Part shown: positions 2,753 to 61,977 of the stretch, piece after piece
How the letters are laid out: each line of letters opens with the position of its first letter
Position numbering within the stretch: position 1 is the first letter of the stretch
From: Anderseniella sp. Alg231-50
Lineage (GTDB): Bacteria; Pseudomonadota; Alphaproteobacteria; Rhizobiales; Aestuariivirgaceae
DNA length: 64,000 bases
Direction of reading: 5' to 3'
NCBI RefSeq assembly: GCF_900149695.1
Contig: NZ_LT703004.1
Location: 1 to 64,000, forward strand
Position numbers and translations under genes: made by a program
Notes under the pieces: model-generated
Seen by the model: only the letters and a program-made list of their open reading frames with translations
Database searches by the model: none
Told to the model about the DNA's origin: nothing

Positions 2753-3763
2753 CTAATAGTGAACGTCTGACAACTCTGAACCAGCGCCTGTGCTCCCGGA
2801 CCGCGGCGGTTTTCCCTTGGACAAATGAACCGCGATACCAGGGTGCAGACTGGCCAAGCGAACCCGCGAGGCAATTTGCTGCTGCGGCGCTGGTTTTGCT
2901 GCGAGGCGCGATGAGACAGAGACACGTTTTACCGCCAGGTTCAACCATGCCCGGGACCTGTTGATCGAGTAAAGCGGCTGGTATCGCGAAACCGTCAGAT
3001 GATCGCGTACCTGCATCGACTGATTATCCAGAATCATGGTTGTGTCAGCCAGCCTGACCGACAACACGGCGTGGCCAAGACCGCTGACCACGTCACGAAC
3101 CACAACCACCTTCATATCCTTGTCACTGATGCCGAGTTGCGACAGGATGAAATACTTGGCAATCACGTAGTCTTCGCAATCACCCCGCGCACCCATGACT
3201 TCGCTGGGCCCAGCCCAGTATTCGTTGCGGCCGAACACCTTCCGGTCACTGGTGTAGCGAATGTGGCGGTTGACGTACCGGTTCACCTGATCCAGCAGGT
3301 TGCCATCAACCGGCTTGTGCTTTGACTGACCGATAATGGCCGACAGCAGCCGAACGGCCTTCCGGCACTGACGATTGTGTGCTGAACAGCTGCTCACAAG
3401 CGCAGTGTCCTTGCGCATCTTGCGAAGGGCCCTGAACCAGTGCTTTGAAGCCAGATTGATATTGGTGTCCAGTTCCAGGGAACCAAAAATCCCACCCGCG
3501 TTTACTTTTGCGGTGGCATCACTACGGTTGAGGTTCTTGGGGCTGCTGGCTGCAAACGCCGGCCCCGTCCCGCCGAGTATCAACGGCAACAGGACGATGC
3601 CTCCAGCGAGGTAGCGCAGAAACAGTCCCGGCGCGCGAAGCGTGCATTCCCGGCAATATCTTTCGTGTAAACAAGGGCTTGAAGAATTACGTCTATTTTT
3701 ATCTTTCTCTGAGTGCCTCTGCCCAAGCTTTGTTGATTGGCTTGAGCAGGTATTGCAGGACAC
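2753..3763 (-). CDS. lapG: LapG-like periplasmic transglutaminase-type cysteine protease
   Basis: This belongs to the bacterial transglutaminase-like cysteine proteinase family. In Pseudomonas, LapG cuts the N-terminal retention module of the giant adhesin LapA and releases it from the surface. The triad is visible as Cys196 (GDCEDYV), His231 (GLGHAV) and Asp246 (ILDNQ), numbered from the GTG at 3763. A hydrophobic export segment lies at about residues 48-72 (LFLRYLAGGIVLLPLILGG). GTG 3763 is the only standard start upstream of that segment. It overlaps the end of the HlyD gene by 65 nt and gives an odd cysteine-rich leader, so the true start is uncertain. No LapD-type c-di-GMP receptor is seen in the window. 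Confidence 0.82.
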   Translation of the reverse strand: MSCNTCSSQSTKLGQRHSEKDKNRRNSSSPCLHERYCRECTLRAPGLFLRYLAGGIVLLPLILGGTGPAFAASSPKNLNRSDATAKVNAGGIFGSLELDTNINLASKHWFRALRKMRKDTALVSSCSAHNRQCRKAVRLLSAIIGQSKHKPVDGNLLDQVNRYVNRHIRYTSDRKVFGRNEYWAGPSEVMGARGDCEDYVIAKYFILSQLGISDKDMKVVVVRDVVSGLGHAVLSVRLADTTMILDNQSMQVRDHLTVSRYQPLYSINRSRAWLNLAVKRVSVSSRLAAKPAPQQQIASRVRLASLHPGIAVHLSKGKPPRSGSTGAGSELSDVHY

Positions 3764-8933: not shown

Positions 8934-9788
8934 TCAGTTGCGCACGGCAGGCGTTTCCACCGACAGTCCTGCACCGCGAGATGCCAGGTAAAGTTCAAGC
9001 GCAATGAACTCGTCCGAACCGCGTTTGTAAGGTGTTGCGCGGATATTCTTCATGCAACCGGAGAAGCGGCGGTGAATGGAGCCCAAGCCACCCCACTTCA
9101 GGCGGTAGGTCGGGAATCCGTTGATCTGGCCCTGGCTGAGATGATCAGCGCGGATCATCTTGCCGTAGTTGTCTTCATGGCAATTGGCACATGACATGTC
9201 GAGCTGGCCAACACGGGTGTAGTAGAGTTTCTTGCCCTTGTCGGTCCACGACTGCATTGGCCCGTCGGTTTTGACATTCACCGACATGCCGCGTGACTGC
9301 AGGCCGATATAGGCGGTCATGGCGAGCATGTTGGGTGCTTCCCACTTCCAGGCTTCGGCTTTCATGTTGTCGGTCCGGCAGGCATTGATCTGGGTTTCCA
9401 GAGTGTGCGGCTTGCCAAGCTTCTCGTTCCACTTCGGCATGGACGCACGAACACCTTTCATGGTCTCCGACGCATCATTGTGGCATGTGGCGCAGGACTT
9501 GCCCGCCTCACCCTCAACAGTGCTCCAAAGAGTCTCGCCCTGCTCTACTGCCGGAAAGGCCGGGTTTTCAAAATCGTCCATTTCAAAGGCCTGGGTTTCC
9601 GGCGAGCGGAAACGCCAGCCGGAATAGACCCGGCTCAGGGGGCTGCCTTTCGGAGCCTCCACGTCAGTGACCAGTTGCTGTCCTTCGATCACCAGCGTGT
9701 TGTTGTCCGGCTCGGCAATCGCCGTGCCTGCCGCGAAAACAGATGCCGCCGTCAGCAGTCCGGCCCATTTGAGTGTTGTCGAGTTCAT
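8934..9788 (-). CDS. soxA: SoxA, diheme cytochrome c subunit of SoxAX
   Basis: SoxA with SoxX couples thiosulfate oxidatively to the SoxY cysteine. The 284-residue protein starts at ATG 9788 behind GGGAGGAAAC and has a Sec signal peptide. Two heme sites are present, CATCH (about 99-103) and CANCH (about 200-204), so this is the diheme type. The active-site cysteine expected to carry the persulfide heme ligand is Cys245 in RRFSGCMK. A strong hairpin separates it from soxZ and a terminator follows it. Confidence 0.96.
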   Translation of the reverse strand: MNSTTLKWAGLLTAASVFAAGTAIAEPDNNTLVIEGQQLVTDVEAPKGSPLSRVYSGWRFRSPETQAFEMDDFENPAFPAVEQGETLWSTVEGEAGKSCATCHNDASETMKGVRASMPKWNEKLGKPHTLETQINACRTDNMKAEAWKWEAPNMLAMTAYIGLQSRGMSVNVKTDGPMQSWTDKGKKLYYTRVGQLDMSCANCHEDNYGKMIRADHLSQGQINGFPTYRLKWGGLGSIHRRFSGCMKNIRATPYKRGSDEFIALELYLASRGAGLSVETPAVRN

Positions 9789-9826
9789 TTTGTTTCCTCC
9801 CGAAGTTCTAAGTTTTCATGTAACCG

Positions 9827-9854
9827 GCCGGCAGCCGTTGAACCGGCTGCCGGC
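9827..9854 (-). other. Strong hairpin between soxZ and soxA
   Basis: A perfect 11-bp inverted repeat (arms 9827-9837 and 9844-9854, GCCGGCAGCCG and its complement) with a 6-nt loop starts 8 nt after the soxZ stop. No T-run follows on the minus strand. It is more likely an RNA-stabilising or processing structure that protects the upstream soxXYZ message than a terminator. Confidence 0.6.
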
Positions 9855-9862
9855 GATGCATG

Positions 9863-10189
9863 TCACTTGACCTCGATTTTTTTGCTTGTTTCGTAGACAG
9901 AGCCGTCATCGTCCACCCAGGTGAACTTGAACTCGCCTGATTCCGGCACCTTGGCCGTAAACTCGAGATACGGATTGGCCGAGATGGCCGGATCGATGTC
10001 ACACCCGAACACCTTGGTTCCGTTGAACTCGCAGGTGAACTTGTTGATAATCTTGCGCGGGATGACCTTGCCGGCCTTGTCCTTGCGCTGACCGGATTCC
10101 ATCTTGTGGCTGATCAGCGTCTTGATGGTGATCACCTCGCCGGCTTTGGCCGACTTGGGCACCTTCACGCGTGGTTTTGCTTTTGCCAT
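9863..10189 (-). CDS. soxZ: SoxZ, sulfur-carrier complex subunit
   Basis: The 108-residue immunoglobulin-like protein has no signal peptide of its own; SoxZ is normally co-exported with SoxY through the Tat pathway. The sequence is typical of SoxZ throughout (KVPKSAKAGEVITIKTLISH, then the C-terminal FTWVDDDGS region). It forms the SoxYZ carrier on which thiosulfate is processed. ATG 10189 is preceded by AGAGGAC and lies 23 nt after soxY, consistent with co-translation. Confidence 0.96.
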   Translation of the reverse strand: MAKAKPRVKVPKSAKAGEVITIKTLISHKMESGQRKDKAGKVIPRKIINKFTCEFNGTKVFGCDIDPAISANPYLEFTAKVPESGEFKFTWVDDDGSVYETSKKIEVK

Positions 10190-10212
10190 TTTCGTTTGTC
10201 CTCTTGGGTATC

Positions 10213-10668
10213 CTAGCCGCCACAGCCGCCGATTGTGACCTTGACCAGCCTGGTATCAGAATAAACCGACCCGTCCTTCATCTTTGCAACGGCGACAACA
10301 TTCTGTGTCTTCGCCAAACGCATGCGGGTCGTGGCAGATGCCTCGCCGCTCATCTCGGTAAAGTGGAACGTCGCCACTTCCGGATTCGGGTTGCCTTCGG
10401 CCAGGATGATCACCGATTCCACCATGTCATCACCGGACATGGCGCTTTCGACCGAAACGGAAATCGGAACCGTGTTGCCGTTCTCGGCAATTTCGGGCGC
10501 TTTCAGCGTAATCTTGCCGGATGCAGGCTCCTTGCCTCCAGCAAATTCCATGACCCGCTTCTTGGTGTCTTCTGCTGCAGCACTGGCCGGATTGACCCTG
10601 ACGCCTGCCACGGCCAGCACAGCCGCGCCGGCAGTCAGGCCCAGTACCTGTCTCCTGTCTAGCTTCAT
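10213..10668 (-). CDS. soxY: SoxY, sulfur-carrier subunit with C-terminal GGCGG
   Basis: SoxY carries the sulfur substrate covalently on the cysteine of its mobile C-terminal arm. Here the protein ends in GGCGG, with the cysteine at about residue 149 of 151. A twin-arginine leader (DRRQVLGL) explains export of the folded SoxYZ pair. The start at ATG 10668 has AGGAG upstream, and soxX ends 11 nt before it. The length is typical of the family. Confidence 0.97.
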   Translation of the reverse strand: MKLDRRQVLGLTAGAAVLAVAGVRVNPASAAAEDTKKRVMEFAGGKEPASGKITLKAPEIAENGNTVPISVSVESAMSGDDMVESVIILAEGNPNPEVATFHFTEMSGEASATTRMRLAKTQNVVAVAKMKDGSVYSDTRLVKVTIGGCGG

Positions 10669-39423: not shown

Positions 39424-40092
39424 ATGAGTGAAACACTTGCAAAGCCAGCCAATGGTTCAAGCGCAGCAAAACCTGTGTTTTCTCAAGACCCGCACAAGAC
39501 TAGTGAATCACGGGAAAAAGTGCTCGAGGTCGCCATTGGCCGGGAAGTCCGGTCATTTCGCCGCCAGCACAACATAACCGTCGCCGACCTGGCCAAGACC
39601 ACGGGCCTGTCCATCGGCATGCTGTCGAAGATCGAGAACGGTGTGACATCGCCCTCGCTGACCACACTGCAGGCCCTGTCCAACGCCCTGAGCATTCCGC
39701 TGACTTCTTTCTTTCGCGGATTTGAGGAACAGCGTGAAGCGGTTCATGTCAAAGCCGGCACCGGAGACGAAGCCGACAGGCGCGGCACGCGCGCCGGCCA
39801 CCAGTACAACCTGCTCGGCCATATCGGCTCCAACGCCTCCGGCGTCATTGTTGAACCCTACCTGATCACCCTCACGGAAGAGTCCGATACCTTTCCGGAC
39901 TTTCAGCACGACGGCATGGAGTTCATCTACATGCTGGAAGGCGAAGTCGAATACCGGCACGGTGACAAGACGTTCATCCTGCAGCCCGGCGACAGTTTCT
40001 TTTTCGATGCGGACGCACCGCACGGTCCCCAGGCCCACATCAAGCTGCCGGCGCGTTATCTGTCGATCATTTCATACCCGCAAAACTCTTAG
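39424..40092 (+). CDS. XRE-family regulator with C-terminal cupin domain
   Basis: The 222-residue protein has an XRE helix-turn-helix at about residues 37-95 (VADLAKTTGLSIGMLSKIEN) and a cupin ligand domain from about 125 (FQHDGMEFIYMLEGEVEYRH, GDSFFFDADAPHGPQ). Such regulators often control amine or glutamine-related catabolic genes. ATG 39424 is the only ATG before the conserved part. It is followed by the Amt and N-methylglutamate-synthase-like genes on the same strand and is the likely regulator of that cluster. Confidence 0.87.
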   Translation: MSETLAKPANGSSAAKPVFSQDPHKTSESREKVLEVAIGREVRSFRRQHNITVADLAKTTGLSIGMLSKIENGVTSPSLTTLQALSNALSIPLTSFFRGFEEQREAVHVKAGTGDEADRRGTRAGHQYNLLGHIGSNASGVIVEPYLITLTEESDTFPDFQHDGMEFIYMLEGEVEYRHGDKTFILQPGDSFFFDADAPHGPQAHIKLPARYLSIISYPQNS

Positions 40093-40489: not shown

Positions 40490-41848
40490 ATGGGGAGTAA
40501 TATTGACGCACTCACCACTGTGTTCACCGAGTTTTATTACTGGGTGACGGTGGTGATGATGTTTTTGATCCATGTTGGATTCTGTATGTATGAGGTAGGC
40601 GCCAGCCGCCGCCGAAATCACATGCACACACTCATGAAGAACACGATGCTGATCCCGCTGGTCACCATCACCTTCTTCTTCTTCGGCTGGTGGATCTACT
40701 GGGCATTCCCCAATGGTCCCGGCTTTATCGGCGGCCTGGAAGACGGGTCAGCCAACGCACCATGGTCACCGACCATGGCCACGAACCTGAGTGACCGGAT
40801 AACCGGCGTGTTCTGGGCAGCTTTCCTGCTGTTCTCATGGACTGCAGCCTCAATCGTCTCCGGTTCGGTAATTGAACGTATCCGTTCAACCGCGTTCTGG
40901 ATTCATGCCGTGCTGATCGGCTCTGTGTTCTGGATCATTGATGCATCCTGGGGCTGGCACTATGCCGGCTGGATGGTCAAGGTGCTCGGCTATCACGATG
41001 CCTACGCATCCGGTGTTATCCACGCGATTGCAGGTGGCTATGCATTAGGTGTCCTGGTGGTTCTCGGACCACGTCTCGGCAAGTTTGCCGCCGACGGTAC
41101 ACCGCGCGATATCCCGCCACACAATCCATGGCTGGTCACCATCGGCCTGTTCATGATCTATACAGGCTTCTGGGGCTTTTATGCCGCGTGCAACGTGCCG
41201 ATCATCTCGCCTGAAGTTATTGATGGGCAGATTACCGGTGTCACCTGGACAGCCACCAATATCTATCTCGGCCCCACGACACTCGGTGCCATCACGTTCA
41301 ACTTCCTGATGTCATTGTCGGGCGGGTTGCTGGTCGCCTACATCGTGTCCAAGGGGGATGCCTTCTGGACATATTCAGGTGGCCTTGCGGGGATCATTGC
41401 CGCGTCAGCCGGTAACGATCTGTACCATCCGATTCAGGCCATGTTCATTGCCGGCTTCGGTACGTTCTGCGCCTACAAGCTGCACTACTGGGTCGAACGC
41501 AAGTTCAAGATCGACGATGCAGTTGGTGCGGTTGCGGTGCACGGCTATGCCGGTTTCATCGGTGTGACCGTTGCCGGCTTCATGCTCTGGGGCCAGCCAT
41601 CGTCGCCATATGAAGGCTATGCGGCGATCAACCCGCTCGGCAACTTCATTGGCGCGATCATCATGTTCGGTGTGCTTGGCTTCCTGCCGGCGTTCATCGT
41701 CTCGAAGATCATGGCTGCAAGGGGCATGTTGCGTATTCCTGCAAAGGCTGAACTGCAGGGCCTTGATCACCACAGCGAGCTTGCCTATCAGGCGGCCATT
41801 GACGATGTCCGCGCTGCCGAGCGTGAACTCGCTGCAAACCAGAAATAA
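40490..41848 (+). CDS. Divergent Amt/MEP-family ammonium or methylammonium transporter
   Basis: The 452-residue protein has about eleven membrane segments. The Amt pore residues can be placed: Asp170 and His178 in DAYASGVIHAIAGG, and the second pore histidine His351 in AVAVHGYAGFIG. Other Amt signatures are altered, for example IYTGFWGFYAAC replaces the usual WFGWYGFN segment. ATG 40490 has GAGGGAGG upstream. A 71-aa membrane protein follows in place of a glnK gene. Next to methylamine-type genes, methylammonium is a reasonable substrate guess. Confidence 0.85.
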   Translation: MGSNIDALTTVFTEFYYWVTVVMMFLIHVGFCMYEVGASRRRNHMHTLMKNTMLIPLVTITFFFFGWWIYWAFPNGPGFIGGLEDGSANAPWSPTMATNLSDRITGVFWAAFLLFSWTAASIVSGSVIERIRSTAFWIHAVLIGSVFWIIDASWGWHYAGWMVKVLGYHDAYASGVIHAIAGGYALGVLVVLGPRLGKFAADGTPRDIPPHNPWLVTIGLFMIYTGFWGFYAACNVPIISPEVIDGQITGVTWTATNIYLGPTTLGAITFNFLMSLSGGLLVAYIVSKGDAFWTYSGGLAGIIAASAGNDLYHPIQAMFIAGFGTFCAYKLHYWVERKFKIDDAVGAVAVHGYAGFIGVTVAGFMLWGQPSSPYEGYAAINPLGNFIGAIIMFGVLGFLPAFIVSKIMAARGMLRIPAKAELQGLDHHSELAYQAAIDDVRAAERELAANQK

Positions 41849-41860
41849 GGAGGATAGATC

Positions 41861-42076
41861 ATGTCTACCAATGGTATGGAGAGCTGGGCAGTCGATCTGA
41901 AGGACGTCGGTGCCATCTATCCCTTCCAGGGAACCGAAGTCATCCTGGTCATCCTGGGGATTGCGTTCTGGATTGGATTTCACGTGATGCAGGCAAAAGT
42001 CGAAGCCGGCGAGCTGGCTGATGCTGAACGTGACTTCAATGCAGAGCATTCCAACAAAAGCATTGATCGATACTAG
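41861..42076 (+). CDS. Small single-span membrane protein paired with the Amt-like transporter
   Basis: The 71-residue protein has a strong ribosome site (AAGGAGG) 12 nt after the amt stop. It has one membrane segment at about residues 25-43 (GTEVILVILGIAFWIGF) and a charged C-terminal tail (EAGELADAERDFNAEHSN). It is followed by a terminator, so amt and this gene form a two-gene transcript. I do not recognise the family; a subunit or regulator of the transporter is the simplest reading. Confidence 0.75.
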   Translation: MSTNGMESWAVDLKDVGAIYPFQGTEVILVILGIAFWIGFHVMQAKVEAGELADAERDFNAEHSNKSIDRY

Positions 42077-42093
42077 ATCACCTTGCTAAGGCA

Positions 42094-42131
42094 GGGGCGG
42101 ATGTGACAATCGCATCCGCCCCTTTTCTTTT
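42094..42131 (+). terminator. Intrinsic terminator after the amt unit
   Basis: A perfect 10-bp GC-rich stem (GGGGCGGATG 42094-42103, CATCCGCCCC 42113-42122) with a 9-nt loop is followed by TTTTCTTTT. It separates the amt pair from the synthase genes, which must use a promoter in 42132-42230. Confidence 0.88.
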
Positions 42132-42230: not shown

Positions 42231-43127
42231 ATGTGCGGGATCGTTGGATTATTCCTCAAGGACAAGTCGCTGGAACCGAAGCTGGGGTCGATGCTCACCG
42301 ACATGCTGATTACCATGACGGACCGGGGCCCCGACAGCGCGGGCATTGCCATTTACGGCCGGGATGAAGACAGCAATACCAAGTTGACCATCCAGTCGGG
42401 TGATCCTGCCCGGGACTTTGACGGCCTGGATAAAGCATTGTCCGGGGCAGCCAACACAAAAGTTTCCATGCGGGTCAAGGACACCCATGCCGTGCTTGAA
42501 GTTTCGGACGAACATGCAGACGACGTCCGCAAGGCACTGGCAGAGCTGCGTCCGGGCATCCGCGTCATGAGCGCCGGCGACATCATCGAGATTTACAAGG
42601 AAGTGGGCCTGCCCAAGGAGGTCGCCCAACGGTTCGACCTTGCCGAGATGACCGGCAGCCACGGCATAGGGCACACCCGCATGGCCACCGAGTCTGCCGT
42701 GACCACCATGGGTGCACACCCGTTCTCGACCGGTTCGGATCAATGCCTCGTGCACAACGGCTCGCTGTCCAATCACAACAGCCTGCGGCGCAAGCTGAAA
42801 CGCGACGGCATTGCCTTTGAAACGGACAATGATTCAGAAGTTGCCGCCGCCTACCTGACCAACAAGATGAACCATGGCAGCAATCTCGGCGAGGCGCTGG
42901 AATCCAGCCTTGATGACCTGGACGGGTTCTTCACCTTTGTTGTCGGCACCAAGGACGGCTTCGGTGTGGTGCGCGATCCGATCGCCTGCAAGCCCGCCGT
43001 CATGGCCGAGACCGACCAGTATGTGGCATTTGGTTCAGAGTACCGGGCCCTGGTCAACCTGCCGGGTATCGAACAGGCCCGCGTGTGGGAGCCCGAGCCT
43101 GCAACCGTCTATTTCTGGGAGCACTGA
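42231..43127 (+). CDS. mgsA: N-methylglutamate synthase-like subunit A, class II glutamine amidotransferase
   Basis: The 298-residue Ntn-hydrolase starts MCGIVGL, so removal of Met1 exposes the catalytic Cys. Other class II amidotransferase motifs are TDRGPDSAG, GHTRMAT, VHNGSLSNH and TDNDSEVAA. In the N-methylglutamate pathway this subunit handles the glutamine or gamma-glutamylmethylamide and passes the amine to the FMN subunit. ATG 42231 fits that need exactly. It is followed after 3 nt by the GXGXG subunit gene. A general GlxB-type amidotransferase is the alternative name. Confidence 0.83.
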   Translation: MCGIVGLFLKDKSLEPKLGSMLTDMLITMTDRGPDSAGIAIYGRDEDSNTKLTIQSGDPARDFDGLDKALSGAANTKVSMRVKDTHAVLEVSDEHADDVRKALAELRPGIRVMSAGDIIEIYKEVGLPKEVAQRFDLAEMTGSHGIGHTRMATESAVTTMGAHPFSTGSDQCLVHNGSLSNHNSLRRKLKRDGIAFETDNDSEVAAAYLTNKMNHGSNLGEALESSLDDLDGFFTFVVGTKDGFGVVRDPIACKPAVMAETDQYVAFGSEYRALVNLPGIEQARVWEPEPATVYFWEH

Positions 43128-43130
43128 GCC

Positions 43131-43814
43131 ATGCAGACCATCGATATGGCCACCACCCCGCTCCGCGAGGTGAACTCCACCCTGCAGGCCCAGAAAGCCG
43201 ACACCAACCAGAAAGACTGGGAGATCGTAAACCCCAAGGGCAGTCACGCCATTGCCTGCGGCCTTGATGGCCCCATAGAGGTGACCGTGCACGGCTCCAC
43301 CGGTTATTACAGCGCCGGCATGAACAAGCAGGCCCACGTCCATATTGTCGGATCAGCTGGGCCCGGCGTCGCAGAAAACATGATGTCGGGTACCGTTGTC
43401 ATTGACGGTGACGCCAGCCAGTATGCCGGTGCCACGGGCCATGGCGGCTTGCTGGTCATCAAGGGCAACGCCTCGTCGCGCTGCGGCATTTCCATGAAAG
43501 GCATCGATATCGTCGTGCATGGCAACATCGGCCACATGAGTGCCTTCATGGCTCAGTCCGGCAACCTGGTCGTGCTGGGCGATGCTGGTGATGCGCTGGG
43601 CGATTCCCTGTATGAAGCCCGGCTTTTCGTGCGCGGCACGGTCAAGAGCCTGGGTGCGGACTGCATCGAAAAGGACATGCGGCCCGAGCACGTTGAGATT
43701 CTGAAAGACCTGCTGGAACGCGCAGGTGCAGACGCCAAACCGGAAGAGTTCAAGCGTTATGGCTCAGCTCGCAAACTCTATAATTTCGACGTTGACAACG
43801 CGTCTGCGTATTAA
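43131..43814 (+). CDS. mgsB: N-methylglutamate synthase-like subunit B, GXGXG domain
   Basis: The 227-residue protein is the beta-helical GXGXG domain that sits at the C-terminus of glutamate synthase large subunits, here as a separate chain (repeats such as GSAGPGVAENMMSGTVVIDG and GHMSAFMAQSGNLVVLGDAG). It is a structural subunit that holds the amidotransferase and FMN parts together. It follows mgsA by 3 nt and precedes mgsC by 9 nt. The paralogue at 58651 is longer at both ends. Confidence 0.85.
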   Translation: MQTIDMATTPLREVNSTLQAQKADTNQKDWEIVNPKGSHAIACGLDGPIEVTVHGSTGYYSAGMNKQAHVHIVGSAGPGVAENMMSGTVVIDGDASQYAGATGHGGLLVIKGNASSRCGISMKGIDIVVHGNIGHMSAFMAQSGNLVVLGDAGDALGDSLYEARLFVRGTVKSLGADCIEKDMRPEHVEILKDLLERAGADAKPEEFKRYGSARKLYNFDVDNASAY

Positions 43815-43823
43815 GGGGCGATA

Positions 43824-45173
43824 ATGAACAAGATGACCAAGAATGTATCCGGCATTCCACGCACGGTACCGCAGAAACCCGCGACATTCACCGATCCGGT
43901 CAATGCTGAAATCCGCCGCGCCGCGGCAACCGGCATTTATGACATTCGCGGCGGCGGCGCCAAGCGCAAGGTCCCGCACTTCGACGACCTCCTTTTTCTC
44001 GGAGCTTCGATCTCGCGTTATCCGCTGGAAGGCTATCGCGAAAAGTGTGAAACCAAGGTTGTGCTGGGTACACGGTTTGCAAAAAAGCCGATCGAGCTGG
44101 ACATTCCGATCACCATTGCCGGGATGAGTTTCGGTTCATTGTCAGGACCGGCCAAGGAAGCCCTGGGGCGCGGCGCAAGTGCCGCCGGGACCTCGACGAC
44201 CACCGGAGACGGTGGCATGACGGAAGAAGAACGCGGCCATTCGGACAAGCTGGTCTATCAGTATCTGCCGTCACGCTACGGCATGAACCCGGATGATCTC
44301 AGGCGCTGTGATGCCATTGAGGTTGTGGTTGGCCAGGGCGCAAAGCCCGGCGGCGGTGGCATGTTGCTGGGCCAGAAGATTTCCGACCGGGTTGCTGAAA
44401 TGCGCAACCTGCCCAAGGGCATTGACCAGCGTTCCGCCTGCCGCCACCCTGACTGGACCGGCCCTGACGACCTGGAAATCAAGATCCTGGAACTGCGCGA
44501 AATCACCAACTGGGAAAAGCCGATCTACATCAAGGTCGGCGGCGCGCGGCCCTATTTCGACACCACGCTGGCGGTCAAGGCCGGGGCCGACGTTGTCGTG
44601 CTGGACGGCATGCAGGGAGGCACGGCGGCGACACAGGATGTGTTCATTGAACATGTCGGCCAGCCGACACTCGCCTGTATTCGCCCGGCGGTTCAGGCCC
44701 TGCAAGACCTCGGCATGCATCGCGAAGTACAACTGGTGGTATCCGGCGGCATTCGCACCGGAGCCGACGTTGCGAAAGCCCTCGCGCTGGGCGCTGATGC
44801 CGTGTCCATCGGAACGGCGGCCCTGATTGCGCTGGGTGACAATGATCCACGCTGGGAAGCTGAATACAACGAACTGGGCACGACCGCGGGTGCTTATGAC
44901 GACTGGCACGAAGGCCAGGATCCGGCCGGCATCACCACGCAGGATGCCGACCTGATGGCCCGGTTCGATCCGATTGCCGGCGGGCGCCGGCTGTCCAACT
45001 ACCTCAAGGTCATGACGCTTGAAGCTCAAACCATTGCCCGCGCGTGCGGCAAGAACCACGTCCATAACCTGGAACCGGAAGACCTGTGCGCCTTGACCGT
45101 GGAGGCATCGGCGATGTCGGGTGTACCGCTTGCCGGCACAAGCTGGGTTCCCGGACGCGACGGGAGCTACTAA
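43824..45173 (+). CDS. mgsC: N-methylglutamate synthase-like subunit C, FMN domain lacking Fe-S cysteines
   Basis: The 449-residue FMN-binding glutamate-synthase domain has AGMSFGSLSGPAKEALGRGA, GGIRTGADVAKALALGADAV and the C-terminal MTLEAQTIARACGK. It joins an amine to 2-oxoglutarate in the N-methylglutamate or glutamate synthase reaction. The segment that carries the three 3Fe-4S cysteines in its paralogue (CYHCHTGRCPVG) reads YDDWHEGQDPAG here, so the iron-sulfur cluster should be absent. ATG 43824 has AAGGGG upstream. Confidence 0.85.
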   Translation: MNKMTKNVSGIPRTVPQKPATFTDPVNAEIRRAAATGIYDIRGGGAKRKVPHFDDLLFLGASISRYPLEGYREKCETKVVLGTRFAKKPIELDIPITIAGMSFGSLSGPAKEALGRGASAAGTSTTTGDGGMTEEERGHSDKLVYQYLPSRYGMNPDDLRRCDAIEVVVGQGAKPGGGGMLLGQKISDRVAEMRNLPKGIDQRSACRHPDWTGPDDLEIKILELREITNWEKPIYIKVGGARPYFDTTLAVKAGADVVVLDGMQGGTAATQDVFIEHVGQPTLACIRPAVQALQDLGMHREVQLVVSGGIRTGADVAKALALGADAVSIGTAALIALGDNDPRWEAEYNELGTTAGAYDDWHEGQDPAGITTQDADLMARFDPIAGGRRLSNYLKVMTLEAQTIARACGKNHVHNLEPEDLCALTVEASAMSGVPLAGTSWVPGRDGSY

Positions 45174-45220
45174 AAACAAACCGACAACAACCACAGAGAA
45201 TTCTGGGAGGAAACAAATCC

Positions 45221-46528
45221 ATGGCAACCGATCTGGCCCAATTCGCCAAGGAAAATGGCGTCAAATATTTCATGATCTCATTCACCGACCTGTTCGGCGG
45301 GCAACGCGCCAAGCTGGTTCCGGCGCAGGCCATTGCCGACATGCAGAAGGAAGGCGCCGGGTTTGCCGGGTTTGCCACCTGGCTCGACATGACCCCGGCC
45401 TACCCGGACATGCTGGCGGTACCTGATCCTGCATCAGTCATTCAGTTGCCGTGGAAAAAGGATGTCGCCTGGGTGGCCGGCAACTGCGTCATGGAGGACC
45501 AGTTCGTTGCACAGGCACCGCGCAATGTACTGAACCGGCTGATCGCGGAAGCGGCCGACGAAGGCATGCGGGTGAAGACCGGCATCGAGGCTGAGTTTTT
45601 CCTGCTGACGCCGGACGGGTCACAAATCTCCGATGAATACGATACCGCCGAAAAGCCGTGTTATGACCAGCAGGCGGTAATGCGGCGGTATGATGTTATC
45701 GCCGAAATCTGCGATTACATGCTGGAACTGGGCTGGGGTCCCTACCAGAATGACCATGAAGACGCCAACGGACAGTTCGAGATGAACTGGGAGTTTGACG
45801 ACACTCTGAACACTGCCGACAAGCACTCGTTCTTCAAGTTCATGACCAAGTCAGTTGCGGAAAAACACGGACTGCGCGCCACCTTCATGCCAAAACCGGT
45901 TGAAGGCCTGACCGGAAATGGTTGCCATGCGCACATCTCCGTCTGGGACAAGGCCGGCAAGGTCAACGTCTTCGCAGATGACGACATGGAACTCGGCCTG
46001 TCGGCAAAGGGCCGGAACTTCCTCGGCGGCATCATGAAACATGCATCCGCCCTGGCCGCGATCACCAATCCGACGGTGAATTCCTACAAGCGCATCAACG
46101 CACCGCGTACCACGTCAGGCGCGACCTGGGCGCCAAACACGGTGACCTGGACCGGCAACAACCGCACCCACATGGTTCGCGTACCGGGCCCGGGACGTTT
46201 CGAACTCCGGCTGGCAGACGGCGCGACCAATCCGTATCTGCTGCAGGCGGTCATCATTGCAGCCGGTCTCGACGGTATCCGCACCCAGGCTGATCCCGGC
46301 AAACGCCACGACATCGACATGTATGCCGAAGGCTACAAGGTGAAGGGTGCGCCGAAGCTGCCGCTCAACATGCTCGATGCCCTGCGCGCGTTCGACAAGG
46401 ACAAGGGCCTCAAAACCGCCCTTGGTGATGAATTTTCCGCGGCCTACCTGAAAATGAAGCATCAGGAGTGGCATGCATTCACGTCGCACTTCTCGCAATG
46501 GGAGAAGGACAACACGCTGGATATCTAG
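45221..46528 (+). CDS. gmaS: Gamma-glutamylmethylamide synthetase-like glutamine synthetase
   Basis: The 435-residue GS-fold enzyme has the ATP and metal motifs of the type III / GlnT group (KTGIEAEFFLL, NGCHAHISVWD, NSYKRINAP). GMAS joins methylamine to glutamate using ATP, and the product feeds N-methylglutamate synthase, whose three subunits are encoded just upstream. The size matches GMAS. ATG 45221 sits behind GGGAGG; the longer frame to 45086 overlaps mgsC. A plain glutamine synthetase is possible, but the gene context favours GMAS. Confidence 0.82.
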   Translation: MATDLAQFAKENGVKYFMISFTDLFGGQRAKLVPAQAIADMQKEGAGFAGFATWLDMTPAYPDMLAVPDPASVIQLPWKKDVAWVAGNCVMEDQFVAQAPRNVLNRLIAEAADEGMRVKTGIEAEFFLLTPDGSQISDEYDTAEKPCYDQQAVMRRYDVIAEICDYMLELGWGPYQNDHEDANGQFEMNWEFDDTLNTADKHSFFKFMTKSVAEKHGLRATFMPKPVEGLTGNGCHAHISVWDKAGKVNVFADDDMELGLSAKGRNFLGGIMKHASALAAITNPTVNSYKRINAPRTTSGATWAPNTVTWTGNNRTHMVRVPGPGRFELRLADGATNPYLLQAVIIAAGLDGIRTQADPGKRHDIDMYAEGYKVKGAPKLPLNMLDALRAFDKDKGLKTALGDEFSAAYLKMKHQEWHAFTSHFSQWEKDNTLDI

Positions 46529-46632: not shown

Positions 46633-47235
46633 TTGCAAAACCTTGTTCAATGGAGTCCCGGTGTGCTTCCCGAAGACCTGCGCAATCATTTTCTGACCTG
46701 GCAATGCCGCATCAGGCAAATCGCCATGCGCGAGCAGGAAGGCCGCCCCGGCCAGGGCATGCGGCCACGGGTTCTTGATGCCAATGGGGAACAGCTATCA
46801 GCGGGCATTATTGTTCTGCTGGTACGCGAGGATTCATTTGAAAGCACCGAATTCCTGAAATTCCAGGTGCAGAAGTACAATGACCCGCAGGACGTGTACA
46901 AAAAGGCGCTGATCTTCCTGCAATCCACCCATTATCATCGCGCCGCAGAATTTTCAGATGAAATGACGGGGCTGTTCAGCAAGGGTTCGGAGCTTGTCCA
47001 GCGCATGATGAGCGGTGGAAATGTCACCCTGGAGTTCGCTCAGTTTTCGCAAACCTACCAGGTTCCCTGCAACACCCGATTGCTGCCCCCCGAAGAAGCG
47101 GCTTACGAGGCAACGCTGTGGCATAACCGGGTGTTCAATCCGAATATCGGCTCAGATATCGAGATTGTCGGTTTCCAACCCGACTGGGATGCAGCAGCCG
47201 GATTGATGGATGGCTCTGCGAAAGCAGCAAGCTAA
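46633..47235 (+). CDS. Unrecognised protein downstream of gmaS
   Basis: An ORF of 200 residues starts at TTG 46633, but the ribosome site is weak and GTG 46661 is an alternative start. The protein looks soluble, with no signal peptide or membrane segment. It has an N-terminal WQCRIRQIAMREQEGRP region and a central part rich in helices (FLQSTHYHRAAEFSDEMTGL). I do not recognise the family. It lies between gmaS and a DAO flavoprotein on the same strand, so a role in the same amine pathway is plausible. Confidence 0.65.
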   Translation: MQNLVQWSPGVLPEDLRNHFLTWQCRIRQIAMREQEGRPGQGMRPRVLDANGEQLSAGIIVLLVREDSFESTEFLKFQVQKYNDPQDVYKKALIFLQSTHYHRAAEFSDEMTGLFSKGSELVQRMMSGGNVTLEFAQFSQTYQVPCNTRLLPPEEAAYEATLWHNRVFNPNIGSDIEIVGFQPDWDAAAGLMDGSAKAAS

Positions 47236-47300
47236 ACCAATTATTTCATCGGCCCTGTGACGTCGCATGATGCAACTGAGCCGAAGTGGCGGTCGTGTTG

Positions 47301-48533
47301 ATGGAAACCTTCGATCATATTGTCATTGGCGGCGGCGTTTTGGGTCTGTCCATCGCTTACCACCTTGCCCGTGACAGCGGAGAAAGCGTTCTTGTAGTTG
47401 AACGCAATGAACTTGCCAGTGCCGCATCCAGCAAGGCGGCGGGCCTGATTTTGCAGTCCACTGGAAAGGCGCCGCAAACCCCCATGGTCAGGTTGACCCG
47501 CGAAACCGTGGCACAACTCGAAGAAGACCTGGGCGAAACCATAGGGTTCCATGACGTCGGAAGCCTTCGGATCGCAGCCTCATCGGCACGCGAAGCGGAA
47601 TTGCGTGGCATGGAGCGTGACGCAGAAAGCCATGGCATCCCATTTCAGCATCTGAGCCAGCACGACGCTCGCATCAAGGCACCGTGGTTGAATTCAACGG
47701 TGGCTCATCGCATCACATTATTCCCCACAGATGGCTATGTTGATCCCTACATGCTCAGCACTGCCTACGGTCGGGCGGCGCGCAAGTTTGGTGCACATAT
47801 CCGCACACGTATCGCGGTAAACGATCTGATACGCATTTCTGATCGCGTCACAGGCGTCAGGACGGCGTCGGGCGATGTGTCCGGCGGCTCCGTGATCGAC
47901 GCTGCCGGGGCATGGGCGTCTCTCATTTCCGCCCGTGCCGGTTATCCGCTGCCCATGGCACCCACCCGAAGTCACTATTGGATCACCGCTGCAGATGCCT
48001 CCTATGGCGACCAATTTCCCGTCACCCTTCTACCCGACTGCAGAGCCTATATGCGCCCGGACACAGGTGCGATGGTGATCGGTGTTCAGGAGGCAAACTC
48101 GGCTACCTTTGACGCCCGACAACTGCCGGATGATATCAACACGTTTTCCCCTACCCCGGGTGAAGAACATTGGGACATTATCGCCGAGGCCATGGAGTCG
48201 ATCTCGGCTTTTTTCCCGGCAATTGCGCGTGCAAGATTTGCAAACTACATCAGCGGCCTGTCCACCTATACGCCAGACGGAACCGTTCTTCTGGGCGCAG
48301 TTCCCGGATCATCCAACTTTTTCACGGCGGCAGGATGCTGCGGAAATGGTATCGCATTGTCCGCCGGCATCGGTTCAGCCATTTCCGCACTGGTGCGCGG
48401 CAATGAGCCGGTATTTGACATAACACCATTTGCTCCAGGCCGTTTTGGCTCGCTCGATCCGTTCTCGAGGGAGTTCAGGGATCGCTGCTCCGCTGCGCGC
48501 GCCTGCAAATCTCACAGTACACCAGCTTCCTGA
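47301..48533 (+). CDS. DAO-family FAD amine/amino-acid oxidoreductase
   Basis: The 410-residue protein has the N-terminal dinucleotide fold HIVIGGGVLGLSIAYHLA and C-terminal GLSTYTPDGTVLLG and GCCGNGIALSAGIG, typical of sarcosine oxidase beta-like and glycine-oxidase-like enzymes. ATG 47301 is preferred, though GTG 47286 is also in frame; neither has a strong ribosome site. Next to gmaS and mgsABC it may oxidise N-methylglutamate or another N-methyl amino acid, which would replace the mgdABCD enzyme not seen in this window. Substrate unproven. Confidence 0.78.
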   Translation: METFDHIVIGGGVLGLSIAYHLARDSGESVLVVERNELASAASSKAAGLILQSTGKAPQTPMVRLTRETVAQLEEDLGETIGFHDVGSLRIAASSAREAELRGMERDAESHGIPFQHLSQHDARIKAPWLNSTVAHRITLFPTDGYVDPYMLSTAYGRAARKFGAHIRTRIAVNDLIRISDRVTGVRTASGDVSGGSVIDAAGAWASLISARAGYPLPMAPTRSHYWITAADASYGDQFPVTLLPDCRAYMRPDTGAMVIGVQEANSATFDARQLPDDINTFSPTPGEEHWDIIAEAMESISAFFPAIARARFANYISGLSTYTPDGTVLLGAVPGSSNFFTAAGCCGNGIALSAGIGSAISALVRGNEPVFDITPFAPGRFGSLDPFSREFRDRCSAARACKSHSTPAS

Positions 48534-57233: not shown

Positions 57234-58607
57234 CTAAATGTGGTGATAGTCGTCTACGCCGACCGTGAAGTCGGTACCGGCAAGCGGCACCTGGGCGATT
57301 GCCGACGCTTCCATGGTCAGGGCAGCCAGGTCTTCCGGCTCCAGACTGTGGATATTGGTCTTGCCGCAGGCACGAGCCATCATCTGGGCTTCCATGGTCA
57401 GCGTATGCAGGAAGTTGTAGACGCGTTCTGCTGCCTCATCCGGATCGAGGCGCTTGCGCAACGCCGGGTCCTGTGTCGCCACGCCGACCGGGCAGCGCCC
57501 TGTGTGACAGTGATAGCACTCGCCTGCTTCCACACCCATCTCCGACGGATAATCGGCTTCCTCGATGTCCTTGTTGCAGTTCAGGGCCATCATGGCGGAA
57601 TGGCCGATTGCGATGGCATCGGCTCCCAGGGCCAGTGCCTTGGCAACGTCGCCGCCGTTTCGGATACCGCCGGCATAAACCAGCGTTATCTCGCCACGCT
57701 TGCCGATGTCGTCAATGGCACGCCGGGCCTGGCGGATGGCCGCCATGCCGGGCACCCCGGTTTCCTCGGTGGCCAGATGCGGACCGGCGCCGGTGCCGCC
57801 TTCCATGCCGTCGATATAGATCGAGTCCGGATCACACTTTGCCGCCATGCGTACGTCATCGTAGACACGTGCCGCGCCAAGCTTGAGCTGGATCGGAATC
57901 TGCCAGTCGGTCGCTTCGCGAATTTCCTGGATCTTCAGTGCCAGATCGTCCGGTCCGAGCCAGTCCGGGTGCCGGGCCGGTGAACGCTGGTCGATACCGG
58001 CAGGAAGCGAGCGCATTTCTGCGACCTGATCGGTTACCTTCTGACCCATCAGGTGCCCGCCAAGACCGACCTTACAACCCTGCCCGATGAAAAATTCGCA
58101 ACCGTCAGCCAGTTGCAGATGGTGCGGGTTGAAGCCATAGCGCGACTGGATGCACTGGTAGAACCACTTTGACGAATACCGCCGCTCATCCGGGATCATG
58201 CCGCCCTCGCCCGAACACGTAGCGGTGCCGGCCATGGTAGCGCCACGCGCCAAGGCAGTCTTGGCCTCGAATGACAATGCACCGAAGCTCATGCCGGTAA
58301 TGTAGATCGGAATATCGAGTTCAATCGGACGCTTGGCGCGCGGACCGATAATGGTCTTGGTCAGGCATTTTTCACGATAGCCTTCGATCACGAAACGGGT
58401 CAGCGTGCCCGGAAGAAATGTCAGATCATCCCAGTGCGGGATTTTCTTGAACAGCGAGAACCCGCGCATACGGTAGCGGCCAAGTTCCGATTTGATGTGA
58501 ATGTCGTTCACCACCTCCGGCGGGAACACAAATGAATTGCCGAGCTTGTATTTCTTCTCGACCTGCAACTTGGAATGGCCAGTGTCTTTTTTGGTCTTGC
58601 CAGTCAT
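57234..58607 (-). CDS. FMN and 3Fe-4S glutamate-synthase-like subunit (second cluster)
   Basis: The 457-residue FMN domain protein has TGMSFGALSFEAKTALARGA, DGMEGGTGAGPHL and GGIRNGGDVAKALALGAD. It keeps the three cysteines of a 3Fe-4S site in ECYHCHTGRCPVGVATQD, unlike its paralogue at 43824. It should pass electrons and ammonia (or an amine) to 2-oxoglutarate. The GXGXG and amidotransferase subunits are encoded just upstream. GlxD is an alternative name. Confidence 0.88.
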   Translation of the reverse strand: MTGKTKKDTGHSKLQVEKKYKLGNSFVFPPEVVNDIHIKSELGRYRMRGFSLFKKIPHWDDLTFLPGTLTRFVIEGYREKCLTKTIIGPRAKRPIELDIPIYITGMSFGALSFEAKTALARGATMAGTATCSGEGGMIPDERRYSSKWFYQCIQSRYGFNPHHLQLADGCEFFIGQGCKVGLGGHLMGQKVTDQVAEMRSLPAGIDQRSPARHPDWLGPDDLALKIQEIREATDWQIPIQLKLGAARVYDDVRMAAKCDPDSIYIDGMEGGTGAGPHLATEETGVPGMAAIRQARRAIDDIGKRGEITLVYAGGIRNGGDVAKALALGADAIAIGHSAMMALNCNKDIEEADYPSEMGVEAGECYHCHTGRCPVGVATQDPALRKRLDPDEAAERVYNFLHTLTMEAQMMARACGKTNIHSLEPEDLAALTMEASAIAQVPLAGTDFTVGVDDYHHI

Positions 58608-60498: not shown

Positions 60499-61977
60499 TT
60501 ACGGCAGGCATTCCATGTAGGTGTCTTTGTCCCAATCGGTGACGGAAGACATGAAGCGTCCCCATTCATCCGATTTGTACTCGTGGTAGAGCCGGTACAT
60601 TTCGCCGGGCAGGCCACGCTGCACGACTTCGTCAGCCTCGAGCGCCTCAAGCGCTTCACCAAGCGACATCGGAAGCTTCTTCACATCCTTGCCGGCCTTG
60701 ATGGCATCATAGATGTTTCTTTCTTCCGGCTCACCGGGGTCGAGCTTGTTGACGATACCGTCATCGGCAGCCGCCAGAATGCAGGCACCCATGAGGTAAG
60801 GGTTCACCATGGAGTCCACCGAACGGTATTCAAACCGGCCCGGTGCCGACACGCGCAAGCCCGTGGTGCGGTTCTGGAAACCCCAGTCCGCAAACACCGG
60901 CGCCCAGAAACCGGTATCCCACAAGCGGCGATACGAATTCACGGTCGACGATCCGATTGCTGTCAATGCCCGCAGGTGATGCACAATGCCGCCGATGGCC
61001 TCCAGGCCGGCTTTCTGCGGCATCTGGGGATCGTCGCCATCCGGCATGAAGGTGTTGTCTCCACCTTTCACGTACATGTAGTTGTCTTTCATGCCCGGCA
61101 GTGCTTTCGGGTCATTGCCGGTGCGGCAGAACTCGTCCTCGCCGCCATGCCACAGCGACATGTTGTGGTGACAACCCGAAGCCGAAACGCCTTCAAACGG
61201 CTTGGTCATGAAGCAGGCGAAGATGCCGAACTCGCGGGCGACCTGGGCGCAGATCTGGCGGTAAGTCGTCAACCGGTCGGCATTGCGCAACACGTCGTCG
61301 TACATCCAGTTGAGTTCCAGCTGGCCCGGTGCGTCCTCGTGATCGCCCTGGATCATGTCGAGGCCCATCGCGCGGGAGTATTCCATCACTTTCATGTAGA
61401 CGGGGCGCAGGCTCTCGAACTGGTCGATGTGATAACAGTAAGGCTTGGAGTATCCGTGCTCCGGCTTACCGTCCTCATTGAACTTGAGCCACATCATTTC
61501 CGGCTCGGTGCCGACACGCAGGCTGAGGCCGTTGTGCTTCTTCTTGAAGTCGTCGTGCAGGCGGCGCAGGTTGCCGCGGCAGTCGGCGGTCAGGTACCCG
61601 CCTGGATCTTCCTTCTCCTCGCGGTTGCGGAACAGTGTGCAATAGAAGCGCCCGATGCGCTTGTCCCAGGGCAGCTGCATGAAGGTTTCAGGCTCAGGAA
61701 TGCCGACAAGCTCTGCTGCTTCCGGGCCGTAACCGAGATACTCGCCGGCCCGGTTGGTGAACAGGTTCATGGTTGCGCCGTAAACGAGCTGAAAGCCTTT
61801 CTTGGCGACTGCTTCCCAGTGATCGGCAGGAATACCCTTACCCATTATTTTGCCGGTGACCGACACGAACTGGAGATAGAGATACTCAATCCCCAGCTCA
61901 TCGATCATTTTCCGGACTTCCTTGACCTTTTCGGCCCTGCCCGGCGCATCAACAAAATTCTCAATATCCATTGCCAT
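60499..61977 (-). CDS. Glutamine-synthetase-family ligase of the second cluster (GlnT/GMAS-like)
   Basis: The 492-residue GS-fold enzyme has LRVGTEPEMMWLKF, SGCHHNMSLWHGG and NSYRRLWDTGF motifs of the type III group, and is about 57 residues longer than the enzyme at 45221. The family joins ammonia or a primary amine to glutamate. It leads the operon GS, amidotransferase, GXGXG, FMN subunit and the 136-aa unknown. ATG 61977 and 61971 are both possible. An array of ACCAAT repeats lies 25-62 nt upstream. Confidence 0.87.
   Translation of the reverse strand: MAMDIENFVDAPGRAEKVKEVRKMIDELGIEYLYLQFVSVTGKIMGKGIPADHWEAVAKKGFQLVYGATMNLFTNRAGEYLGYGPEAAELVGIPEPETFMQLPWDKRIGRFYCTLFRNREEKEDPGGYLTADCRGNLRRLHDDFKKKHNGLSLRVGTEPEMMWLKFNEDGKPEHGYSKPYCYHIDQFESLRPVYMKVMEYSRAMGLDMIQGDHEDAPGQLELNWMYDDVLRNADRLTTYRQICAQVAREFGIFACFMTKPFEGVSASGCHHNMSLWHGGEDEFCRTGNDPKALPGMKDNYMYVKGGDNTFMPDGDDPQMPQKAGLEAIGGIVHHLRALTAIGSSTVNSYRRLWDTGFWAPVFADWGFQNRTTGLRVSAPGRFEYRSVDSMVNPYLMGACILAAADDGIVNKLDPGEPEERNIYDAIKAGKDVKKLPMSLGEALEALEADEVVQRGLPGEMYRLYHEYKSDEWGRFMSSVTDWDKDTYMECLP

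Follow-up and report, generated by a model that had tools for sequence, protein, structure and literature searches.

A divergent clade of Amt-type transporters paired with a one-helix membrane protein as a putative subunit

Our analysis of an Amt-type transporter gene of Anderseniella sp. Alg231-50 has identified a second gene, encoding a membrane protein of only 71 residues, as its near-constant companion. Both genes are real, the pairing between them is near-absolute in both directions and the transporters concerned belong to one clade. Amts are a textbook family of channels, which have been solved as homotrimers and which are regulated by PII proteins. From the observations described here, we infer a physical complex, its stoichiometry, its substrate and the role of the additional component, and we consider it probable, though far from assured, that the pair constitutes a hetero-oligomeric Amt, presumably an importer of methylammonium, that contains the small one-helix protein as a constitutive subunit. 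With its N-terminus outside and its C-terminus inside, this protein would pack against an Amt protomer as permanent part of the transporter, where it would probably stabilize the trimer or tune the pore, in a branch of the family that appears not to be paired with a gene for the PII protein GlnK. Here and in most relatives, the transporter would most likely import methylammonium for use by the products of gmaS and mgsABC.

In the window, by which we denote the entire stretch of 64,000 nucleotides that was analysed, the divergent Amt-type transporter of 452 residues is encoded on the forward strand at positions 40490–41848, as defined by its open reading frame, a Pfam match, alignment and the match of its fold to solved Amts. 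The small ORF starts 12 nucleotides past the amt stop, with the intervening gap (41849–41860) containing a GGAGG ribosome-binding site, and its product (41861–42076), recognized by conservation, pairing and codon divergence, is a membrane protein with one hydrophobic span, a predicted N-out/C-in topology and a proposed role as Amt subunit. The unit of both genes is closed by a Rho-independent terminator (42093–42131), in which a 14-bp stem (42093–42123) is followed by a T-rich tail and whose fold of −30.7 kcal/mol (z = −5.96) was matched by none of 200 shuffles; the region as a whole holds no excess of terminator-like sites (6 observed vs 7.6 expected), and an Rfam scan of the window gave no match. 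Upstream of amt resides an XRE-cupin regulator (39424–40092), which was assigned by matches to HTH_3 and Cupin_2 and which is a frequent neighbour of amt elsewhere. The genes that follow on the same strand encode an mgsA-like class II glutamine amidotransferase (42231–43127), by homology a subunit of N-methylglutamate synthase, as judged from Pfam and annotated relatives, an mgsB-like GXGXG protein (43131–43814) and an mgsC-like FMN-binding glutamate synthase domain protein (43824–45173), both assigned by Pfam and context, and a type III glutamine synthetase-like protein of the gmaS/glnT kind (45215–46528; TIGR03105, 667.9 bits at a cut-off of 469.6). The curated model for the latter describes a type III glutamate-ammonia ligase, and from homology and context its product is probably a gamma-glutamylmethylamide synthetase. 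Taken together, mgsABC and gmaS constitute the genes of the N-methylglutamate pathway of methylamine utilization. The closest named relative, with an Amt that is 98% identical, is a MAG contig of Anderseniella sp.

Several further genes of this neighbourhood deserve mention in their own right. A protein of 200 residues (46633–47235, forward strand), with no convincing match in Pfam or NCBIfam, recurs beside amt and gmaS at 12 of 59 named loci and in two small genomes; its AF2 model (pLDDT 91) and a fold search, the best matches of which reached a VIA Z of 9.4 and a Foldseek E-value of 1.7e-4, point to a PNPOx-like split-barrel flavin- or heme-binding fold, and all 14 of the sequences compared share W163, H164 and C25. 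The cluster is followed by a DAO-family FAD oxidoreductase (47286–48533, forward strand), which may act on N-methylated amino acids. About 11–15 kb downstream of the mgs cluster, the reverse strand encodes a second glutamate-synthase-domain protein (57234–58607) and a second glutamine-synthetase-like protein (60499–61977), and SoxD-type genes, which possibly belong to an N-methylglutamate dehydrogenase, are located elsewhere in the genome (C1:155247 and C1:880315).

The association of the two genes was quantified in all distinct loci by a uniform criterion, which looked for a hydrophobic ORF of 45–95 residues at −45 to +90 nucleotides from amt. Where the Amt shows at least 40% identity, the small gene is located behind amt in 148 of the 148 distinct loci judged. 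In a 149th counted locus (L171), amt is frameshifted and the criterion selected the wrong ORF, with the true small gene found 240 nucleotides further on. This uniform count omits four loci with a truncated amt (L042, L073, L074 and L153) and one with a short flank (L104), and L195 was left out as a repeat of L069. Among 18 other Amt loci, with less than 35% identity, 17 lack a small ORF, and the one that passes (L002) encodes 45 residues that are unlike the small family; both Amts from DMF plasmids (33% identity) also carry the small gene. A search for Amts in 385 genomes of the class yielded 48 matches at 45–100% identity and, after a gap, 16 matches at no more than 33%. All 44 judged members of the former group are followed by the small ORF, which in L031 was missed by a hydropathy cut-off and recognized on reading, the four that were not counted comprising three cut at contig ends and one further case (G255). 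The small ORF is likewise present in each of the 77 judgeable loci among 80 named ones, in every case preceded by a motif resembling a ribosome-binding site, and 12 of 12 loci drawn from the phylum, one of them a repeat, are paired. In the reverse direction, a profile search in the 385 genomes retrieved 45 matches to the small protein with E-values of at most 4.3e-11, with the next best following at 4.5e-4. An amt of this type adjoins 44 of them, and the 45th (G244) lies on a different contig, with the amt being cut at a contig end. Finally, in 60 relatives, all 15 homologues of the small protein adjoin such an amt. The initial annotation had proposed a dedicated small partner and had named its absence from the majority of loci encoding such an Amt as evidence to the contrary; the proposal is strongly supported by the judged loci and the frameshifted one, none of which lacks the gene, and the reverse search agrees. 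A further member of the family was found in L185 (small gene at 2932–3120), where the Amt is 57% identical and placed between clades A and B and where the partner, of 63 residues, retains the pattern YPFxGxE and was missed by a single-sequence search.

In a phylogenetic tree, which includes two fast-evolving Amts from DMF plasmids and no Rh row, all Amts with a small partner (36 rows) fall on one branch with support of 100/100. A natural control is provided by a plasmid of Pseudomonas RW109, whose mgs genes adjoin an amt that encodes a canonical AmtB (46.5% identity to E. coli AmtB) and that is devoid of a small gene, whereas a second amt on the same plasmid belongs to the divergent clade and carries it. 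Since the two genes differ in this manner and since the pair persists in loci without methylamine markers, the small protein tracks the type of Amt and not the methylamine genes. The fast-evolving plasmid relatives of the pair, in L026 (Aminobacter, 8959–10558, near a dimethylformamidase gene) and L027 (Methylobacterium DM1 plasmid, 8962–10556), have lost F107 and contain Val or Thr in place of S219, and it is for this reason that their substrate may differ again. Another locus (L121), in a record titled Enemella evansiae, which we take to be an actinobacterial name, contains a Rhodobacter-type dmm-amt-mgs cluster with 78% identity to the window's Amt and is probably a mislabelled or mixed assembly.

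In a comparison of the small gene with four relatives from the same genus, 15 of 19, 22 of 27, 28 of 36 and 15 of 22 differences affect third codon positions, and because its divergence is thus mostly synonymous we regard it as a real and translated gene. Counted over 139 distinct members, the most conserved positions of the protein include W9 (132), Y20 (127, with Phe in 12), P21 (124), G24 (132), E26 (127), W37 (122), H41 (118) and Q44 (114), several of which contribute to the motif Y20-P21-F22-x-G24-x-E26. The periodicity of conservation around the helix is not significant (p 0.11–0.14), and we thus do not claim a conserved stripe. When 33 members were scanned against Pfam and NCBIfam, whose models are weak for short proteins, no family matched more than two of them; the best Pfam match of a single member, with an E-value of 0.0027, is unconvincing, and a sequence search of the PDB with the protein or its profile gave insignificant matches throughout.

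Contact between both proteins is indicated by their coevolution. The coupling analysis was based on 148 Amt/small pairs with an effective number of 108, with L026, L027 and L018 being omitted from first runs and L026 and L027 from later ones. The top 30–200 couplings between the proteins match in membrane depth (rho 0.30–0.44, with 0.44 at 30 and 0.30 at 100 pairs), a correspondence as high as which was found in none of 422 circular shifts. The signal persists if gaps are filled and it is abolished by scrambling partners within clades. Two other parameter sets agree at 100 and 200 pairs; among the top 30, shifts that were as high numbered 2 and 28 of the 422, respectively. The coupling strength is modest and the assignment of the small helix to a single Amt helix from these couplings failed, with matches spread over many segments. 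As a control of the depth test, couplings within the Amt gave a rho of 0.43 at 30 and of 0.06 at 200 pairs, and owing to this drop we regard the test as informative chiefly where couplings are strongest. The depth-matched couplings would also define an N-out/C-in topology, the same orientation that is predicted from the positive-inside rule, with an average of 0.40 Lys and Arg residues preceding the span and of 3.12 following it, and the topology is thus predicted by two independent signals. When modelled by AF2 as one chain, the pair reached a pTM of 0.81 and the small helix was predicted with confidence, with means of 83–89 in blocks of 10 residues over most of it, but a docking site did not emerge from this model. 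The earlier proposal of a new small subunit has held with respect to the dedicated partner, and depth-matched coevolution is the evidence that suggests a physical subunit.

The transporter itself is a divergent member of its family. PF00909, the sole domain found, is matched with 177.5 bits (cut-off 23.2), and the protein is classified as divergent because its score for the curated Amt subfamily TIGR00836 is far below the cut-off (176.4 vs 343.3 bits). In the AF2 model of the fused pair, the Amt part superimposes on solved bacterial and archaeal Amts with Z-scores of 39–46 and rmsd values of 2.2–3.4, and on Rh structures with Z-scores of 34–38, and as modelled it has the eleven-helix Amt fold. 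Alignment equates its pore residues D170, H178 and H351 with D160, H168 and H318 of E. coli AmtB, equivalents of which are present in 26 of 26 alignment rows. W148, F107 and F215 of AmtB are equally retained. Signature segments are altered, and the protein contains Ala at the position of F103, Cys at S219, Tyr at N216, Trp at Y140 and Tyr at A162. A consistent pattern emerges in the 13 aligned Amts with a small partner, where W148, D160, H168, F215 and H318 are invariant and where F107 is retained in all but the two DMF-plasmid proteins. In the same set, F103 is changed to Ala in 11 and Arg in two, S219 to Cys in 11 and to Val and Thr in one each, and N216 (to Tyr or Leu), Y140 and A162 are altered throughout. 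Each of the 13 aligned Amts that lack a small gene holds the AmtB residue at all five positions. The mouth of the pore has thus been remodelled in Amts with a partner, and their conduction core is preserved. The divergent Amt with its pore Asp, both His and altered segments, the single-span protein, the strong terminator, the lack of an adjacent glnK and the nearby methylamine-type genes, all of which had been noticed in the initial annotation, are confirmed by sequence, Pfam, fold and codon data.

A second pronounced feature concerns PII genes, none of which is found near the amt of the window. They are located elsewhere in the genome, where both canonical amts have an adjacent PII gene, and no PII gene is present in the flanks of 80 named and 11 further loci with a small partner. 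This distribution would also be compatible with a small protein that acts as regulator rather than constitutive subunit and that binds the Amt conditionally to inhibit it, to protect it or to mark it for turnover, thereby assuming a GlnK-like role by means of a membrane helix. Small membrane proteins such as MgtS, AcrZ and WatS1 are well known to regulate bacterial transporters, as described in a review (PMC10710835). However, all judged loci have the small gene directly behind amt, and it was never found alone, as would be expected of a subunit that is made in step with the transporter. Regulators are more often lost or located elsewhere. We thus consider such regulation a credible but rather unlikely alternative to a constitutive subunit.

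With respect to the substrate, mgs, gmaS, dmmA or dmmC genes were found at 50 of 59 well-flanked named loci, and in three streamlined genomes of 1.2–1.4 Mb the pair is located near gmaS-like genes. The remaining 9 of the 59 loci are devoid of these markers and still carry the pair, and in two of them (L128 and L132) it is found near long DUF1989-GcvT fusion proteins, which possibly belong to a different amine route; for these reasons methylamine is not the sole setting. The S1 site for ammonium comprises S219, W148 and F107 (PMC10433425), and this site is not intact in the window's Amt, where the Trp and Phe are present and Ser is replaced by Cys. Since the mutation S219A in AmtB increases the uptake of both methylammonium and ammonium (same source), the Ser-to-Cys exchange alone cannot separate the two substrates, and the remodelled mouth with its retained core is compatible with a methylated substrate without proving one. 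The transporter might instead serve to recapture or release ammonium from methylamine breakdown, as could be concluded from the retained D160, H168, H318, F215 and W148, from the loci without markers and from the cross-feeding of ammonium by methylamine users reported in PMC7574528. This possibility, to which we attribute a similarly low probability as to conditional regulation, has to account for the two canonical PII-linked amts that the genome already contains and for the location of the differing residues at the ammonium-binding mouth, although the effect of S219A on both uptakes tempers the latter argument. The suggestion of methylammonium uptake made in the initial annotation is thus in line with the genomic context and the altered binding site, with methylammonium being the putative substrate.

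The features of the small protein at its cytoplasmic side raise a further possibility, namely that it is a membrane anchor by which enzymes of the cytoplasm, for example the product of gmaS, are drawn to the mouth of the channel in a complex of uptake and assimilation. In its favour, E48, which is predicted to be located at the inner membrane face, is nearly invariant (138 of 139, with Asp in the other), and the cytoplasmic tail is helical in the AF2 model. However, the tail beyond E48 is the least conserved segment and very short in clade B, and the pair is also encountered at loci without gmaS nearby, which makes an anchoring role improbable. The possibility that the 71-residue ORF lies behind amt fortuitously or is unrelated to it, in favour of which the downstream terminator would suit any short operon, can be dismissed in light of its synonymous-dominated divergence, the pairing counts and the Pseudomonas plasmid control.

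Returning to the transporter with a constitutive one-helix subunit, a wider proposition, which we advance tentatively and consider somewhat less likely than not, would define a separate branch of Amts in Alpha- and Gammaproteobacteria that mainly transports methylammonium and whose obligate subunit reshapes or gates the pore and replaces control by GlnK. If correct, an obligate membrane subunit across a clade would be a new way to build and control an Amt, and the pair would offer a molecular entry point to the bacterial uptake of methylamine, a source of nitrogen and carbon, for which accessible parts of the cited literature name no dedicated and tested importer. Its presence in streamlined genomes implies that the pair may carry a sizeable share of marine methylamine uptake.

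The genetic setting of the pair has precedents in print. In the available portions of the respective studies, amt is recurrent in clusters for the methylated amines TMA, DMA and MMA of Rhodobacteraceae (PMC7574528, PMC5520151 and PMC4744692) and a gmas-mgsABC-amt operon is described as encoding a transporter for methylamine (PMC8292978), whereas the small protein and the distinct Amt clade are unmentioned there. The occurrence of amt in methylamine clusters has thus already been published, and a description of the small partner and the clade was not found. A search of the open-licence PMC literature for either gave no report, which does not establish their absence in print. The terms 'accessory' and 'small protein' do not occur in the main text of a 2023 Amt review (PMC10433425), and in the accessible part of the review on small proteins the regulators listed for Amts are PII proteins and not a membrane protein (PMC10710835). 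In its manner of action, the small protein would resemble AcrZ, MgtS and WatS1, which according to the same review are short membrane partners of large transporters, but it has no convincing match to a described family. Compared to the E. coli AmtB-GlnK system, the divergent Amt shares the fold (VIA Z about 42), PF00909, the twin His, D160, W148 and the Phe gate, and it differs in the absence of a nearby PII gene, in the replacement of F103 by Ala, S219 by Cys, N216 by Tyr or Leu and Y140 by Trp, and in the presence of a small one-span protein instead. The best structural matches, with Z-scores of 44.6–46.1, are the sensor Amts Ks-Amt5 (6eu6) and Sd-Amt1 (8qpf, 8qj3 and 8qj4), proteins that are also the source of the only three matches obtained in a PDB sequence search with the window's Amt. 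The chains of Sd-Amt1, with 644–661 residues, are about 200 residues longer and thus contain extra C-terminal parts, which we take to be signalling domains. In contrast to these sensors, the window's Amt ends at 452 residues and carries no fused signalling domain, its extra part being a separate membrane protein.
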